Source of the DNA: a virus
Virus record (IMG/VR): IMGVR_UViG_3300047174_000129
Coordinates: 1-25,816 of that record
Strand: one strand, 5' to 3'
DNA length: 25,816 nucleotides
Below, piece after piece: positions 7,935 through 23,388 of this stretch. The notes beneath the pieces are model-generated. The model saw only the letters and a list, made by a program, of their open reading frames with translations, did not search any database and was not told the DNA's origin. The translations under genes were made by a program, and so were the position numbers. Within the stretch, counting starts at the first letter, position 1. Each line of letters starts with the position of its first letter.

Positions 7935-8232
7935 CAGAATAATTCAGCTTAAAAAGTATAGCATCCGATAAATTTGGAAAGAAAAACTCAAAAACTGTAT
8001 CTTGATTTTTATTTTTGAAGCAACGAACAGCATAAACTATTCCTTTACAATTACTTCTTATCCATTTACACATATCATGTTCGGCAGTTTCAGGCTGTGG
8101 TGTAGCTTTAATTCCAAACTTTGTCCGCCAAGCATATTCTTCCATCCATTTTTTGTAATTTTTATCAAATGGTATGGCAACTCTATGCATACTCTTTGTA
8201 TCATTTGGGATCGAAAAAATTATTCTAGCCAT
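7930..8232 (-). CDS. Small conserved phage-type protein, 100 aa
   Basis: The 100-residue product starts at ATG 8232, inside the last codons of the methyltransferase gene (13-nt overlap), and ends 33 nt before the preferred start of the giant gene. Function is not recognised. The N-terminus is basic and aromatic (KKWMEEYAWRTKFG), and the C-terminal half has W57-I58, N61-C62 and a final strand-like FEFFF...DA..FK (D90, A91, F94, K95). The same arrangement occurs in the 113-aa product at 24956-25297, so the two probably belong to one small alpha/beta family. The base composition is clearly AT-rich, like the methyltransferase gene. Tight packing suggests co-transcription and co-translation with that enzyme. 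Confidence 0.75.
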   Translation of the reverse strand: MARIIFSIPNDTKSMHRVAIPFDKNYKKWMEEYAWRTKFGIKATPQPETAEHDMCKWIRSNCKGIVYAVRCFKNKNQDTVFEFFFPNLSDAILFKLNYSG

Positions 8233-9008
8233 AAGATACCATCGTCGGAATGCTTAAGATTATCTTCAATGCGTTCTATTGACTTATTGTAATAGTTTTC
8301 TTCTTTTTCAATACAAATCCATTTACGATTTGTATTTTCAGAAGCAATCGCAGTGGTACCAGAACCTGCACAATTATCTAAAATTAAACTTTCTTCATTG
8401 GAATATGTTTTTATTAAATATTCGAATAATGCTACTGGTTTTTGTGTAGGATGAATCTTGCCTTCTCTATTTGGAACAGTATTAAACAATAAAACTGAAG
8501 AAGGATTTACCAATTTTGGATCATAAAATTTCTTTACCTTTTTCATTTTTACATGATTGCTGTCACCGCAATAATGTTCGTAATTATAACAGTCTTTCCC
8601 TATTCCTTCTCTTTCTTCATATTGCTTGTTGAAGACCGATATTTTTTCCTTGCAAAATACTTGTATAGTTTCGTGATATTTCATCGGAGCATAAGAAGCT
8701 TGCGCCATTCCTGTAGGAACATTTTTGAACCATATTATTTCGTGCTTATAGTATTTTAATTGTGAACATATCAAAAGTGAAGTAAACGGTTGTGATGATG
8801 TTAATATAACGACCGCATTTGGTTTACAAATTCTCCAATATTCTTGCCATAACATTTCGAATGGCAAGATAACATCCCATTTACAAGAAGTGGTTCCATA
8901 AGGCAAATCGCAAAGTATCATATCGATGGAAGAACTTGGTATTTCTGCCATTACTTCAAAGCAATCACCGTTATAAAATCTTCCTTTCCCTATATCCTTG
9001 TATTTCAT
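8220..9008 (-). CDS. DNA N-methyltransferase, beta class (YhdJ/CcrM-like layout)
   Basis: The 262-aa protein is predicted to transfer methyl from S-adenosylmethionine to adenine N6 or cytosine N4 in DNA. Catalytic motif IV is near the N-terminus as D34-L-P-Y37, a DPPY variant followed by GTTSCKWD. The HPTQKP motif is at residues 186-191, and the AdoMet-binding motif I is near the C-terminus (DNCAGSGTT, residues 211-219). The order IV first, motif I last is the beta-class arrangement. The length is normal for a solitary enzyme, and no restriction partner is adjacent. The gene begins 20 nt after the gp6-like stop and overlaps the following small gene. It therefore sits as an AT-rich insert within the baseplate operon. 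A likely role is protecting phage DNA from host restriction or altering its regulation; the recognition site cannot be read from the sequence. Confidence 0.92.
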   Translation of the reverse strand: MKYKDIGKGRFYNGDCFEVMAEIPSSSIDMILCDLPYGTTSCKWDVILPFEMLWQEYWRICKPNAVVILTSSQPFTSLLICSQLKYYKHEIIWFKNVPTGMAQASYAPMKYHETIQVFCKEKISVFNKQYEEREGIGKDCYNYEHYCGDSNHVKMKKVKKFYDPKLVNPSSVLLFNTVPNREGKIHPTQKPVALFEYLIKTYSNEESLILDNCAGSGTTAIASENTNRKWICIEKEENYYNKSIERIEDNLKHSDDGILWLE

Positions 9009-19917: not shown

Positions 19918-19980
19918 CATTTGACGATAAGACACTTACCCGATAAGGTTTGGATTACCAAATTTTTCAGGTGAGTGACC

Positions 19981-20724
19981 GTGAGCGAAGCCCTTTATGA
20001 TCTCGGTGGTTTGCGGTTTTGGACTGAGCGAGAAATTCTCGTTCGGGATCAAGCGGTGCAAATGCTTATTCAAGGGTTGAGCAAAAGTCTTCAAACCTTA
20101 AATTCGGCATGGACTTTCCATCGTATGGAAGGGCCTCTTCTGACGCCTCGCCAGTTTATAAGCGAAGCGTATGATGACAACGACATTTTTTCTCTTGAAG
20201 CACAGCTTGGGGGTAGCCAAGCTGCCCTGCGTGCCGAAACGACGGCTTCAAGCTATCTTTACGCAGAACGCTTGTTAAAAAACGGTGGAGCCCGACCGCC
20301 CGTCTGCGTATGGCAAGTTGGAAAAAGTTTTCGGCGCGAAACCAATGATGGTGCGCGCGCTTCGGAACTTCGCTTCAACGAGTTTTACCAAGCCGAATTC
20401 CAGTGCATCTACAAGAATGATACAAAGGCTGATGTTCGGGGCTGCGTTGAACCCGTGATTGAGGGATTGATACGCCAAATCACGCGTTCAACAAATTCTC
20501 GTATCGTAGAAAGTGACCGTCTCCCAGCCTATTCCACAAAGACGAGAGATGTTGAAGTTCTTTATAAAACCGGAGATTCATTACCAAATCGCGAGCCTGC
20601 GGTAAAATGGAAAGAGATGGCTTCCATTTCAACTCGAACCGATTTTCCAGTAGAAAATATGCTGGTGCTTGAGGTGGCAATAGGACTTGATCGGCTTGTT
20701 GCGGTAGAAGCCAACAACCAATGA
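19981..20724 (+). CDS. Stand-alone class II aminoacyl-tRNA synthetase-like catalytic core (GlyRS-type)
   Basis: GTG at 19981 is chosen because AGGTGA lies 6 nt upstream; a GTG at 19975 is too close to that site. The 247-aa product has class II synthetase motifs in order: a motif-1-like helix and proline (RMEGPLLTPRQF, ~48-59), LRAET (83-87, compare GlyRS LRPET), motif 2 (GKSFRRE at 114-120, then R131-F-N-E134-F-x-x-AE139F), and motif 3 (VAIGLDR, 232-238, with R238). These resemble archaeal/bacterial alpha2-type glycyl-tRNA synthetases most, with threonyl/prolyl types as alternatives. Full GlyRS is ~450 aa or longer; here the anticodon-binding domain is absent. The ATP-binding arginines remain, so adenylate formation is plausible. 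Substrate is unknown; it may charge a small acceptor other than tRNA. The stop overlaps the next gene as ATGA. Confidence 0.8.
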   Translation: MSEALYDLGGLRFWTEREILVRDQAVQMLIQGLSKSLQTLNSAWTFHRMEGPLLTPRQFISEAYDDNDIFSLEAQLGGSQAALRAETTASSYLYAERLLKNGGARPPVCVWQVGKSFRRETNDGARASELRFNEFYQAEFQCIYKNDTKADVRGCVEPVIEGLIRQITRSTNSRIVESDRLPAYSTKTRDVEVLYKTGDSLPNREPAVKWKEMASISTRTDFPVENMLVLEVAIGLDRLVAVEANNQ

Positions 20725-20918
20725 AACATTCCGATTTCATCATCAAAGAAAAATTTACTTGTGGGGACAAAACTTGGTTGTGTACCGATATCGGTACGCG
20801 AGTTATTGTTGCCATACAATTTAATTCGGAAGATACCTCGTGGAATAACGGTCCTCCTTACGCCGTTTTAGAACATGTATTTGACGAATATGATATAGAA
20901 GTTTGTGAGCCCGTCTAA
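20721..20918 (+). CDS. Small conserved hypothetical protein, 65 aa
   Basis: The ATG overlaps the synthetase-like stop (ATGA), so the two are probably translationally coupled. The 65-aa protein has a compact beta-rich layout: an FxxGDKTW start, CTDIGTRVIVAIQF (residues ~20-33), WNNGPPYAVLEHVFDEYDIE (~41-60) and a final CEPV. I recall small proteins with this CTD-x-GTR-x-IVAI and NGPPYAV-x-E-x-VFDEYD pattern as a widespread family of unknown function in bacteria and phages. Two cysteines are present but no metal site is evident. It carries no catalytic motif; a role with the upstream enzyme is suggested only by coupling. Confidence 0.8.
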   Translation: MKHSDFIIKEKFTCGDKTWLCTDIGTRVIVAIQFNSEDTSWNNGPPYAVLEHVFDEYDIEVCEPV

Positions 20919-21232
20919 TGGCGTTTGGAAATGCTAAGCAAAACTTCTACATGGGACAATGGGTTCGTATAGGACGAATGCCGGAAGGCGATGAGCTAGA
21001 GGGTATGCTTTGCCGTGTAATTGGTGTGTCTTCACGAGATTCTTTCTGTGATCACTACATTGTCTTATTGACAAAAAAACTAAGCTACAATGATATGATG
21101 GCCATCACAATGACCGAAACTTGTTTGGAGCCTGCTACGGATGTTCAATATTGGAGAATGCATTCAGATAGAGCAGGCTATGACCGAAGTGAAATTAAAT
21201 CTCAAACCGTTTCCAGATTGCTTCGGAGATAG
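20918..21232 (+). CDS. Small hypothetical protein, 104 aa, beta-barrel-like
   Basis: The start codon overlaps the previous stop by one base (TAATG). The 104-aa product begins MAFGNAKQNFYMGQWVRIGR, then MPEGDELEGMLCRVIGVSSR, then DHYIVLLTKK. Alternating hydrophobic strands around a glycine-rich turn resemble a small SH3/KOW-like barrel, but this is a reading of pattern only. The C-terminal 40 residues are charged (SDRAGYDRSEIKSQTVSRLLRR). The final 53 nt overlap the start of the next frame, which begins at 21180. It belongs to the same tight plus-strand operon as the synthetase-like gene. It ends in TAG, showing that amber is an ordinary stop in this region. Confidence 0.72.
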   Translation: MAFGNAKQNFYMGQWVRIGRMPEGDELEGMLCRVIGVSSRDSFCDHYIVLLTKKLSYNDMMAITMTETCLEPATDVQYWRMHSDRAGYDRSEIKSQTVSRLLRR

Positions 21233-21541: not shown

Positions 21542-21561
21542 ACGCTTGTGTGTTTCTCTAT

Positions 21562-21649
21562 GGCCCCCGACCCGGCACGCGCCTTCTAAGCGTGTGACAT
21601 AAAATAGTCGGAAGGAAGTCAAGAGGTTCGATTCCTCCGGGGGCTTCCA
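21562..21649 (+). tRNA. Aberrant tRNA-like element, possible tRNA-Arg(UCU)
   Basis: GGCCCCCG at 21562-21569 pairs with CGGGGGCT at 21638-21645 (one G-T wobble) to give an acceptor stem, followed by T and an encoded CCA at 21647-21649. The T-arm is clear: GAGG-TTCGATT-CCTC (21623-21637). An anticodon arm can be drawn as CGCGC-CTTCTAA-GCGTG (21579-21595), anticodon TCT reading AGA, with the usual T33 and A37. Only 10 nt separate the acceptor from this arm (9 if the first stem is taken as 7 bp), so no D-arm fits, and the variable region is about 27 nt. An alternative pairing CCTTC/GAAGG (21582-21586 with 21611-21615) would leave a 24-nt loop. It may be a degenerate, unusually folded or intron-bearing tRNA. 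It ends one base before the next tRNA. Confidence 0.5.
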
Positions 21650-21650
21650 C

Positions 21651-21723
21651 GATCTCGTAACTCAGCAGGAAGAGTGTCTACGTCCTAAGTAGAATGTCGC
21701 AGGTTCGATCCCTGCCGAGATCG
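21651..21723 (+). tRNA. tRNA-Arg (anticodon CCT)
   Basis: This is a complete cloverleaf of 73 nt without encoded CCA. The acceptor stem GATCTCG pairs with CGAGATC, D-arm ACTC with GAGT around AGCAGGAA, and anticodon stem TCTAC with GTAGA around GTCCTAA. The variable region is ATGTC and T-arm GCAGG pairs with CCTGC around TTCGATC. Discriminator is G. The anticodon CCT at 34-36 decodes AGG, a codon rare in many GC-rich bacteria, so the phage may supply it for its own genes. Its last base abuts the stop of the convergent 99-aa gene. Confidence 0.95.
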
Positions 21724-22023
21724 CTACGTCTCTGGTTTATAATATGGAGAAAATGGGTGCGCTTCTGCTGATTCCAGCCACGACCCATCAATCATGAAAC
21801 CGTGTGCCCATTTTTGGGTATAATCACATGATGGACAGACCCATCCATGAGGGGTTGCCACCAAGGTATCCGAGTCACCTTTCGAGTGCTTCTCTTTGGT
21901 ACCACAAGTGAATTCGTGGAATATTCCGCATTTTTGAAAATTATTAAGAGAATTAACTTCGGCTTCGGTCCAAATAGGAGAACCTTCTTGAACATATTCA
22001 TCTGGTTTAAAAATAAGGGGCAT
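21724..22023 (-). CDS. Small zinc-ribbon-like protein, 99 aa
   Basis: The 99-aa product starts at ATG 22023 with GAGGA 4-5 nt upstream. Residues ~30-80 hold a probable zinc site: a cysteine in FQKCG, a second in FTCG, a histidine region (KEKHSKG), then W-V-C-P-S-C followed by DYTQKWAHGFM. Small phage proteins with a GWVCP-x-CDYTQ-x-WAH-x-FM ending are familiar to me as a conserved family of unknown function. It lies 29 nt after the M16 peptidase stop in the same direction, so the two are probably one transcript. It ends in TAG. A nucleic-acid or protein-binding role is possible, but no partner can be named. Confidence 0.8.
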   Translation of the reverse strand: MPLIFKPDEYVQEGSPIWTEAEVNSLNNFQKCGIFHEFTCGTKEKHSKGDSDTLVATPHGWVCPSCDYTQKWAHGFMIDGSWLESAEAHPFSPYYKPET

Positions 22024-22052: not shown

Positions 22053-23360
22053 TTATTTTGAAGAAATGACATCAGCCACCAAACCATCGTAATCGGCGTC
22101 TGGGGCGTTCCCAGCGACTATAATGGTAGGGACACTAGAAATCAATTCTCGCGCAGCCGCGATTACTTCTTCTCTGGTAACATTAAGGTATCGCTTCTTC
22201 ATATCCGAAAGCGAACGGGTATGTCCTAAAGCAAAAAGTTGTGCTGCGGACATTTGAGCCAAGCTCATTGAGCTTTCTGATCGTGAAACTATTTGGCGGG
22301 TAACTTGATTACGCGCTCGTTCCCAATCCGTGTCTTCAATGGTGCCATTGGCAATTTTTACCAATTCACCCAAAGACTTTTTCATAAATTCGGAAACATG
22401 CCCAGCCGAACAGGCGCCGCCTACGACAAAAAGGCTCCGATCATTGTGTGGGAAGAGTCCAGCAGATACGACGTAGCCAAGTCCAGCCTTTTCACGAACT
22501 TCTTGAAAGAGGGGAGACGACATACCTGTGCCTAGCACGTCGGACAGAAGATCAAAGCGAGCGAAATCGTCATCAACTGAGCCGGGGCATGGAAATGCCA
22601 TGTGTATATGAGCTTGGCTGAACCGTCCGTCCAAAATCAAAGTTGTGCCACCAACATATTGAGTGGGAACCGGTGCTGGCGTTTCACCCGGTTCAATCGT
22701 TCCGAACCGAGACGTAACCTCATCAACAAACAGATCGTGATCTATGTCACCGGTACAAAGAACAATAAGACCATTCGCATGGCAATGACGCTTCAAATAA
22801 TCCAGAAGATTTTCTTTTTTGAAGCTTAAGACATTATCTTTCGACCCCAAAATTGGGCGACCGATAGCTTGGTTCGGATAAGCAGTTGCGGACAACGCGT
22901 CCATTGCAACATCATCAATATTATCTTGGCTGCGATCAATCTCATCGAGAACAACATTCTGTTCCCGTTCGATTTCATTCGGGTCCATAACGGAGTTCAT
23001 CAAGACATCTGACAAAATATCAAGCGCGGGACCAATATGATCCGACAGCCCAGCCACGTAATAAGCCGTCATCTCATGACTGGTGAATGCGTTTACCGAG
23101 GCGCCGAGATGTTCTACTTCAAATGTAATGTCTTTGGAGGATCGAGTAGGAGTGCCCTTGAAGGCCATGTGTTCAAGAAAATGCGAAAGCCCGTTCTCTG
23201 CTTCTGTTTCAAATCTCGAACCAACATTCACGAAAACCGAAACGATAACCGATTGAACCGGACGATATACGGTAACAACTCTCAAACCATTCGGGAGCGT
23301 TGTCAGCTTAACATTATCGTCGCTGGCAAATTCAGCATGAGACAGGCTATAATTTTTCAT
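22053..23360 (-). CDS. M16 family zinc metallopeptidase (pitrilysin / processing peptidase type)
   Basis: The 435-aa protein has the inverted zinc motif H60-F-L-E63-H64 and the third ligand E140 in NVVLDE, 76 residues after H64, as in mitochondrial processing peptidase beta and bacterial PqqL/YmxG-type peptidases. The N-terminal strand (LPNGLRVVTVYRPVQSV), the AFKGT after the motif, and a C-terminal half with GLGYVVSAGLFPHNDRS match a single-unit M16 enzyme of usual length (~420 aa). No signal peptide is seen, so it should act in the cytoplasm. Closest remembered relatives are alphaproteobacterial. TTG at 23363 is an alternative, but ATG 23360 follows AAAGG by 7 nt and is preferred. Composition is more GC-rich than the structural genes, consistent with transfer from a host. 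Such peptidases are unusual in phages. Confidence 0.93.
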   Translation of the reverse strand: MKNYSLSHAEFASDDNVKLTTLPNGLRVVTVYRPVQSVIVSVFVNVGSRFETEAENGLSHFLEHMAFKGTPTRSSKDITFEVEHLGASVNAFTSHEMTAYYVAGLSDHIGPALDILSDVLMNSVMDPNEIEREQNVVLDEIDRSQDNIDDVAMDALSATAYPNQAIGRPILGSKDNVLSFKKENLLDYLKRHCHANGLIVLCTGDIDHDLFVDEVTSRFGTIEPGETPAPVPTQYVGGTTLILDGRFSQAHIHMAFPCPGSVDDDFARFDLLSDVLGTGMSSPLFQEVREKAGLGYVVSAGLFPHNDRSLFVVGGACSAGHVSEFMKKSLGELVKIANGTIEDTDWERARNQVTRQIVSRSESSMSLAQMSAAQLFALGHTRSLSDMKKRYLNVTREEVIAAARELISSVPTIIVAGNAPDADYDGLVADVISSK

Positions 23361-23388
23361 CAAAAAACCTTTCTAATTCAATCTTAAC

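Follow-up and report, generated by a model that had tools for sequence, protein, structure and literature searches.

What can a class II aminoacyl-tRNA synthetase core do for a phage once it has no anticodon-binding domain, and which amino acid and acceptor would it use? This question is raised by a gene in a 25.8-kb piece of an uncultured phage genome, and we refer to this whole stretch of 25,816 nucleotides as the window. The gene, which encodes a minimal GlyRS-like synthetase, runs from 19981 to 20724 on the plus strand and specifies 247 aa from a GTG start. The open reading frame listing also offers a GTG at 19975 (249 aa), and the start at 19981, the one taken in a preliminary description made from the letters alone, is favored because homologues begin ‘MSEALY...’. 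The tail and baseplate genes of the window are on the minus strand, and a DNA methyltransferase gene (8220-9008, minus strand) is situated amid them.

The surroundings of the gene are less informative than they first appeared. Its stop codon overlaps a 65-aa open reading frame (20721-20918, plus strand) through an ATGA at 20721-20724, and that frame overlaps a 104-aa frame (20918-21232, plus strand) through a TAATG at 20916-20920. The preliminary description had proposed that the synthetase is coupled to these two small proteins. The overlaps are real, but the arrangement is restricted to the window phage and its nearest kin and therefore gives no clue to synthetase function: the 65-aa frame has no homologue in related loci, the 104-aa frame is kept among them only in L011, and neither matches a family. 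We rejected both as partners, since conservation of either stops at the nearest relatives. Of the arginine tRNAs that had also been placed downstream, one stands, a tRNA-Arg (CCT) at 21651-21724 on the plus strand, the only one of them that ARAGORN calls. The second, a tRNA-like sequence at 21561-21650 (plus strand) with the anticodon loop CTTCTAA (Arg-TCT), has intact acceptor and T arms but hardly any D arm, and its variable region is long; it goes uncalled by ARAGORN, and its Rfam match, to tRNA-Sec at 25 bits, is below threshold. A tRNA-Arg(TCT) that ARAGORN does call occupies the corresponding place in the window's nearest relatives. Further along, the minus strand encodes an M16-family peptidase (22053-23363) with strong matches to both Pfam M16 domains, which is unusual for a phage, and adjoining it is a small protein (21724-22023) with a weak rubredoxin-like hint.

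Several lines of comparison place the protein itself. Its Pfam and NCBIfam matches are weak but fall among class II synthetases, GlyRS scoring best. The top NCBIfam match is GlyRS (E 1e-11), which misses the curated cut-offs (44 bits vs 312 for PRK04173, and 27 vs 243 for glyS_dimeric); hisZ (E 3e-5, far below cut-off) and genX (E 0.06) are among the other matches, and AsnA is absent from the NCBIfam matches. A profile of 60 family sequences searched against the PDB returned GlyRS structures first (E 1e-16). An AlphaFold2 single-chain model (pLDDT 94.9, pTM 0.91) had Mycobacterium tuberculosis GlyRS (MtbGlyRS) as its top Foldseek match (E 2e-13), the outcome of a structure-prediction check that the preliminary description had itself suggested for its GlyRS-like class II core. 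Judged by family matches and predicted fold, the window protein is a class II synthetase core of the dimeric-GlyRS type. The best viral structure match, A0A6J5M2P2 from an uncultured Caudovirales phage (BFVD; 222 aa, TM-score 0.75-0.83, 32% identity), is a predicted, uncharacterized class II synthetase-domain protein and probably belongs to the same family.

The nearest known system is the dimeric (alpha2) GlyRS, as in M. tuberculosis (8t5n/8u2p) and T. thermophilus (1b76/1ggm), with which the protein has in common the class II core, motifs 1-3, the glutamate triad for the glycine amino group, and the counterparts of Gln214, Arg197, Glu284, Arg291, the lid Tyr, Ala326 and the motif-3 Arg. We gauged conservation in an alignment of 60 homologues of 207-257 aa, down to ~36% identity. 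Motif 1, F46-HRMEGPLL-54 (20116-20142, plus strand, as are all the motifs), contains the motif-1 proline P52, conserved in at least 90% of sequences, and the LRAETT block (20227-20244) contains E86, equivalent to the amino-group-binding Glu165 of MtbGlyRS and present in 59 of the 60. Motif 2 (residues 117-141, 20329-20403) reads F117-R118-R119-E120 ... R131-F-N-E-F135-Y-Q137-A-E139-F-Q141, and R118, E120, R131, F135, Q137, E139 and Q141 are each found in 60/60. The lid SDRLPAYSTKTRD (residues 178-190, 20512-20550) carries Y184, equivalent to Mtb Tyr264, and EMASISTR (residues 212-219, 20614-20637) carries E212 (Glu284; ribose, Mg) and R219 (Arg291). Motif 3, VLEVAIGLDR (residues 229-238, 20665-20694), carries E231 (Glu324), A233 (Ala326) and R238 (Arg331), in a register backed by profile alignment to another GlyRS. 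Motif 2, the LRAET block and motif 3 had all been picked out on first reading, and the ATP-binding arginines, whose loss had been named as the result that would count against an active core, are present in every one of the 60 homologues.

The pocket can be compared contact by contact. In MtbGlyRS, glycyl-AMS is held at its amino group by Glu165, Glu216 and Glu324, at its carbonyl by Arg197 and Gln214, and at its adenine by Glu199, Thr209, Phe212 and Arg331, while Glu284 holds both ribose and Mg, side chains are kept out by Ala326, and Tyr264 is part of the lid (PMC12208437). All of these contacts except Thr209 have counterparts here, namely E86, E139, E231, R118, Q137, E120, F135, R238, E212 and A233, with Y184 for the lid tyrosine. 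Ten of the eleven named contacts are kept in 59-60 of the 60 homologues, as are the equivalents of Arg291 and lid Tyr264. The eleventh contact, Thr209, is not kept, with Phe or Leu at position 132; human GlyRS has Val there (PMC12208437). Buried Glu218, which orients Glu324, is replaced by the invariant Gln141. The glycine-pocket residues of dimeric GlyRS (E86, E139, E231, Q137, R219 and A233) are thereby present in 59-60/60, and the class II hallmarks R118, E120, F135 and R238 in 60/60. Because this pocket is conserved residue by residue, glycine is the predicted substrate and not a new one, and we think it very probable on these sequence grounds that the gene product activates glycine. The ‘new substrates’ of the preliminary description fit poorly with a glycine pocket that includes the side-chain-excluding alanine.

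The chain stops 9 residues past motif 3, leaving no anticodon-binding domain, as had been noted at the outset, and the homologues are equally short. The GlyRS insertion domain, which lies on the acceptor-stem side (Mtb 88-143), is absent, with ~30 residues between P52 and E86, and so is the GlyRS beta-hairpin. At 247 aa, against at least 461 for dimeric GlyRS, and with two defining domains absent, the window protein is not a canonical GlyRS. We rejected the idea of a fragment of a full-length GlyRS gene, a possibility raised earlier as a threat to the free-standing interpretation, given that the homologues are all short and have open frames. The homologue alignment contains no invariant Cys or His, and a median pI of 5.5 and the composition give no hint of RNA binding.

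The family is spread across phages and some bacteria. By tblastn, 19 INPHARED phages have a homologue that aligns with 95-97% of the protein (best E 7e-70), with identities of 52% in Caulobacter CcrSC, 46% in Brevundimonas, 43% in Sinorhizobium Phosso and 37% in Xanthomonas XbC2 phages, and the matches include two 635-kb uncultured phages. Profile searches recovered 71 IMG/VR loci, and 80 loci in bacterial genomes, mostly Rhizobium but also Mesorhizobium, Devosia, Phenylobacterium and Paraburkholderia. Across the phylum just 3 of 398 genomes have a homologue, while within Rhizobium an intact copy is present in ~57 of 120 genomes and a broken one in a few. Genes of this kind in Rhizobium chromosomes carry such labels as ‘hypothetical’, ‘serine-tRNA synthetase’ and ‘aminoacyl--tRNA ligase-related’. 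The bacterial copies stand alone in the chromosome. Since the main bacterial clade nests within phage branches of the tree, gene transfer from phage to bacteria seems the simpler reading of these sequences. Among the Rhizobium cases L150/L151, G121, G127 and G062, two intact copies occur together in a single genome and broken remnants in a few others, from which it follows that the bacterial gene is dispensable. In the open-access literature we found no published description of a minimal GlyRS family, nor is one described in the searched passages of a review of duplicated synthetases (PMC9437257).

The gene tends to keep company with tRNAs. Their genes are about five times denser beside the synthetase gene than 5-6 kb off (~0.5/kb on each side within 500 bp vs 0.05-0.12/kb), and a tRNA lies within 1 kb in 10 of 24 lineages. 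The most over-represented neighboring isotype is tRNA-Gly, with 12 genes vs 2.8 expected within 1 kb and 22 vs 8.9 expected within 6 kb. Counted by lineage the link is not significant (9 lineages vs 6.8 expected, p 0.19 in a permutation on presence alone), and an over-representation that is significant per tRNA but not per lineage is suggestive only. Every tRNA-Gly gene found in five genomes (G016, G024, G034, W05 and W06) lies within ~2.5 kb of the synthetase gene, with hypergeometric p values of 0.004, 0.009, 0.005, 0.012 and 0.16; these genomes were picked because a tRNA-Gly was near, and a rough corrected p of ~0.003, which allows for 24 tRNA-bearing lineages, covers three clear and largely independent cases. 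No tRNA-Gly is near the gene in the Caulobacter, Brevundimonas and Phosso copies, or in the window. All 11 carrier genomes with tRNAs listed encode tRNA-Gly, and the carrier tRNA-Gly sequences have U73 in 41 of 42 and G1-C72 and C2-G71 in nearly all, with the remainder of the molecule varying widely. U73 and C2-G71 are determinants for host GlyRS too, and so their presence in phage tRNA-Gly does not discriminate. In 31 carrier phage records, nothing matches GlyQ and no dimeric GlyRS passes the cut-off.

With moderate confidence, we propose that the gene encodes a minimal, anticodon-blind glycyl-tRNA synthetase with tRNA-Gly as its acceptor. ATP and glycine would be bound by the 247-aa core as in dimeric GlyRS, and the glycine, once activated as glycyl-AMP, would be loaded onto the 3' end of phage-encoded tRNA-Gly and perhaps also of host tRNA-Gly. 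Because the anticodon domain is absent, the tRNA would have to be recognized through its acceptor end (G1-C72, C2-G71 and U73), and the phage would likely benefit from a glycine supply to translation that is independent of the host enzyme. Charging without an anticodon domain has a precedent among PylRS enzymes that have no N-terminal domain, the part that binds tRNA; MaPylRS is one of these and still charges tRNA (PMC10810272). Such enzymes (M. alvus / ISO4-G1 type) resemble the window protein in being class II cores, of ~270 aa, that do not read the anticodon, and the PylRS structure 8ifj is a Foldseek match to our model (E 4e-11). The window protein differs from them in its glycine-type pocket, in having no tRNA-Pyl, and in belonging to another family by sequence. 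Other observations run against a tRNA-Gly acceptor. The acceptor-stem-side insertion is missing as well, leaving no evident hold on the tRNA, and the bacterial copies are isolated and intact in 57 of 120 Rhizobium genomes.

These same features make it conceivable, though with less confidence, that the enzyme is a glycine ligase whose acceptor is something other than a tRNA 3' end (candidates being proteins, carriers, small molecules and modified nucleobases), by analogy with amino acid:carrier-protein ligases, EpmA and GluQRS. Both the anticodon and insertion domains are absent, the gene is isolated in bacterial chromosomes and dispensable in about half of Rhizobium, and free-standing synthetase cores with activities of this sort are known, according to one review (PMC9437257). 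Weighing against a ligase of this kind, no partner gene is conserved across lineages, no carrier-protein family was matched in the neighbors tested, and the gene tends to sit amid tRNA genes. Amino acid:carrier-protein ligases are, like the window protein, class II cores without a tRNA-binding domain, and some activate glycine, but the conserved Cys/His zinc site of the characterized members has no counterpart in a family without invariant Cys or His, and no carrier-protein gene was found beside ours; we rejected a carrier-protein ligase for want of zinc ligands and a carrier gene. EpmA (GenX), HisZ, AsnA and GluQRS are likewise free-standing cores, of another subclass or class, with weak or no NCBIfam matches to the window protein. 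In a broader version, to which we give similarly modest odds, the phage enzyme would work off tRNA altogether, with a protein, a nucleic acid or a metabolite being glycylated while a jumbo phage infects its host, and Rhizobiales would have domesticated it for the same job. The non-tRNA role put forward in the preliminary description is therefore possible without being the leading reading, as the gene sits among tRNA genes, tRNA-Gly is the isotype most over-represented near it, and the carrier phages have no other GlyRS.

A different tRNA partner looked strong at first. In Phosso and eight related phages, a tRNA with the anticodon CUA, labeled ‘tRNA-Pyl’ by ARAGORN, precedes the gene by 0.1-2 kb and is usually the sole tRNA within 12 kb, and several of these loci make little use of TAG stops, all consistent with the synthetase being the partner of an amber-suppressor tRNA in a pyrrolysine-like pair inserting at UAG. 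However, we consider such a pair very unlikely and rejected it as a general role: the Phosso-like phages share one syntenic neighborhood, a block that includes CysRS and RNA ligase; CcrSC has no CUA-pattern match; no CUA tRNA was found in ten bacterial carrier genomes, the tRNA matches there being Arg-TCT; and the nearby CUA tRNAs differ from tRNA-Gly in that their acceptor stems vary and most of them have G73. UAG recoding was rejected as well, because TAG still ends genes in the Phosso-like loci. CUA tRNAs with no target found have been reported in the Xanthomonas jumbo phage XacN1 (PMC5852040), and we regard those near the synthetase gene as a separate puzzle. They occur at 7591-7666 of L003, upstream of the gene in L026, L029, L037, L040-L043 and L047, and also in L013, L063 and L077, and with their diversified acceptor stems they are conserved in a clade of jumbo phages where TAG continues to terminate some genes.

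Idle or regulatory domains have arisen repeatedly from class II synthetases, and the weak HisZ matches could be taken to suggest a catalytically idle scaffold of the kind seen in HisZ or the mitochondrial polymerase accessory subunit, but catalytic residues that are invariant in 60 sequences down to ~36% identity make this highly improbable. Least probable of all is a dinucleotide (Ap4A-type) synthase using the adenylate site, an activity known for GlyRS, including the human enzyme, and compatible with the intact ATP site, for which the glycine pocket need not have stayed invariant.

If the minimal synthetase does charge tRNA-Gly, it would rank with the smallest synthetases in nature, as a GlyRS blind to the anticodon, and would make it directly testable whether an acceptor stem is sufficient to specify an amino acid. 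It would also offer synthetic biology a compact tool, and would mean that jumbo phages substitute a pared-down enzyme for the host synthetase. The FaRel2 toxin, which is linked to phage defense, pyrophosphorylates the 3' end of tRNA-Gly (PMC11559606), and it is tempting to speculate that a phage GlyRS might bear on a toxin contest over this tRNA. If instead no tRNA is charged, the gene would point to a new glycylation reaction in phages and in many Rhizobium chromosomes.

Phages of the carrier set also encode other synthetases. CysRS is found in the carrier set, G003 (the contig behind L011, and the window's nearest long relative) encodes Val, Leu and Trp synthetases, and G016 encodes those for Ile, Asn, Asp and Tyr. 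The ValRS and LeuRS of G003 (L228 7941-9422 and L229 199-2136) are trimmed, at 493 aa vs 863 in the model and 645 vs 843, and apparently have no editing insert; their shortness alongside the minimal GlyRS suggests that jumbo phages pare down several synthetases. A minimal synthetase gene overlaps a full-length CysRS gene in L033 (5992-8036), and CysRS is also near the gene in the Phosso-like group and L017. A T4 Rnl1-type RNA ligase lies less than 6 kb from the gene in about five lineages (L001, L003, L010, L015, L067 and the Phosso-like loci). We set aside a function drawn from neighbors, as Rnl1 and CysRS (three lineages) both recur within 6 kb and neither is universal. In L015 and L067, putative end-healing kinase and phosphatase genes stand beside Rnl1, and the Rnl1 surroundings suggest a tRNA-repair neighborhood.
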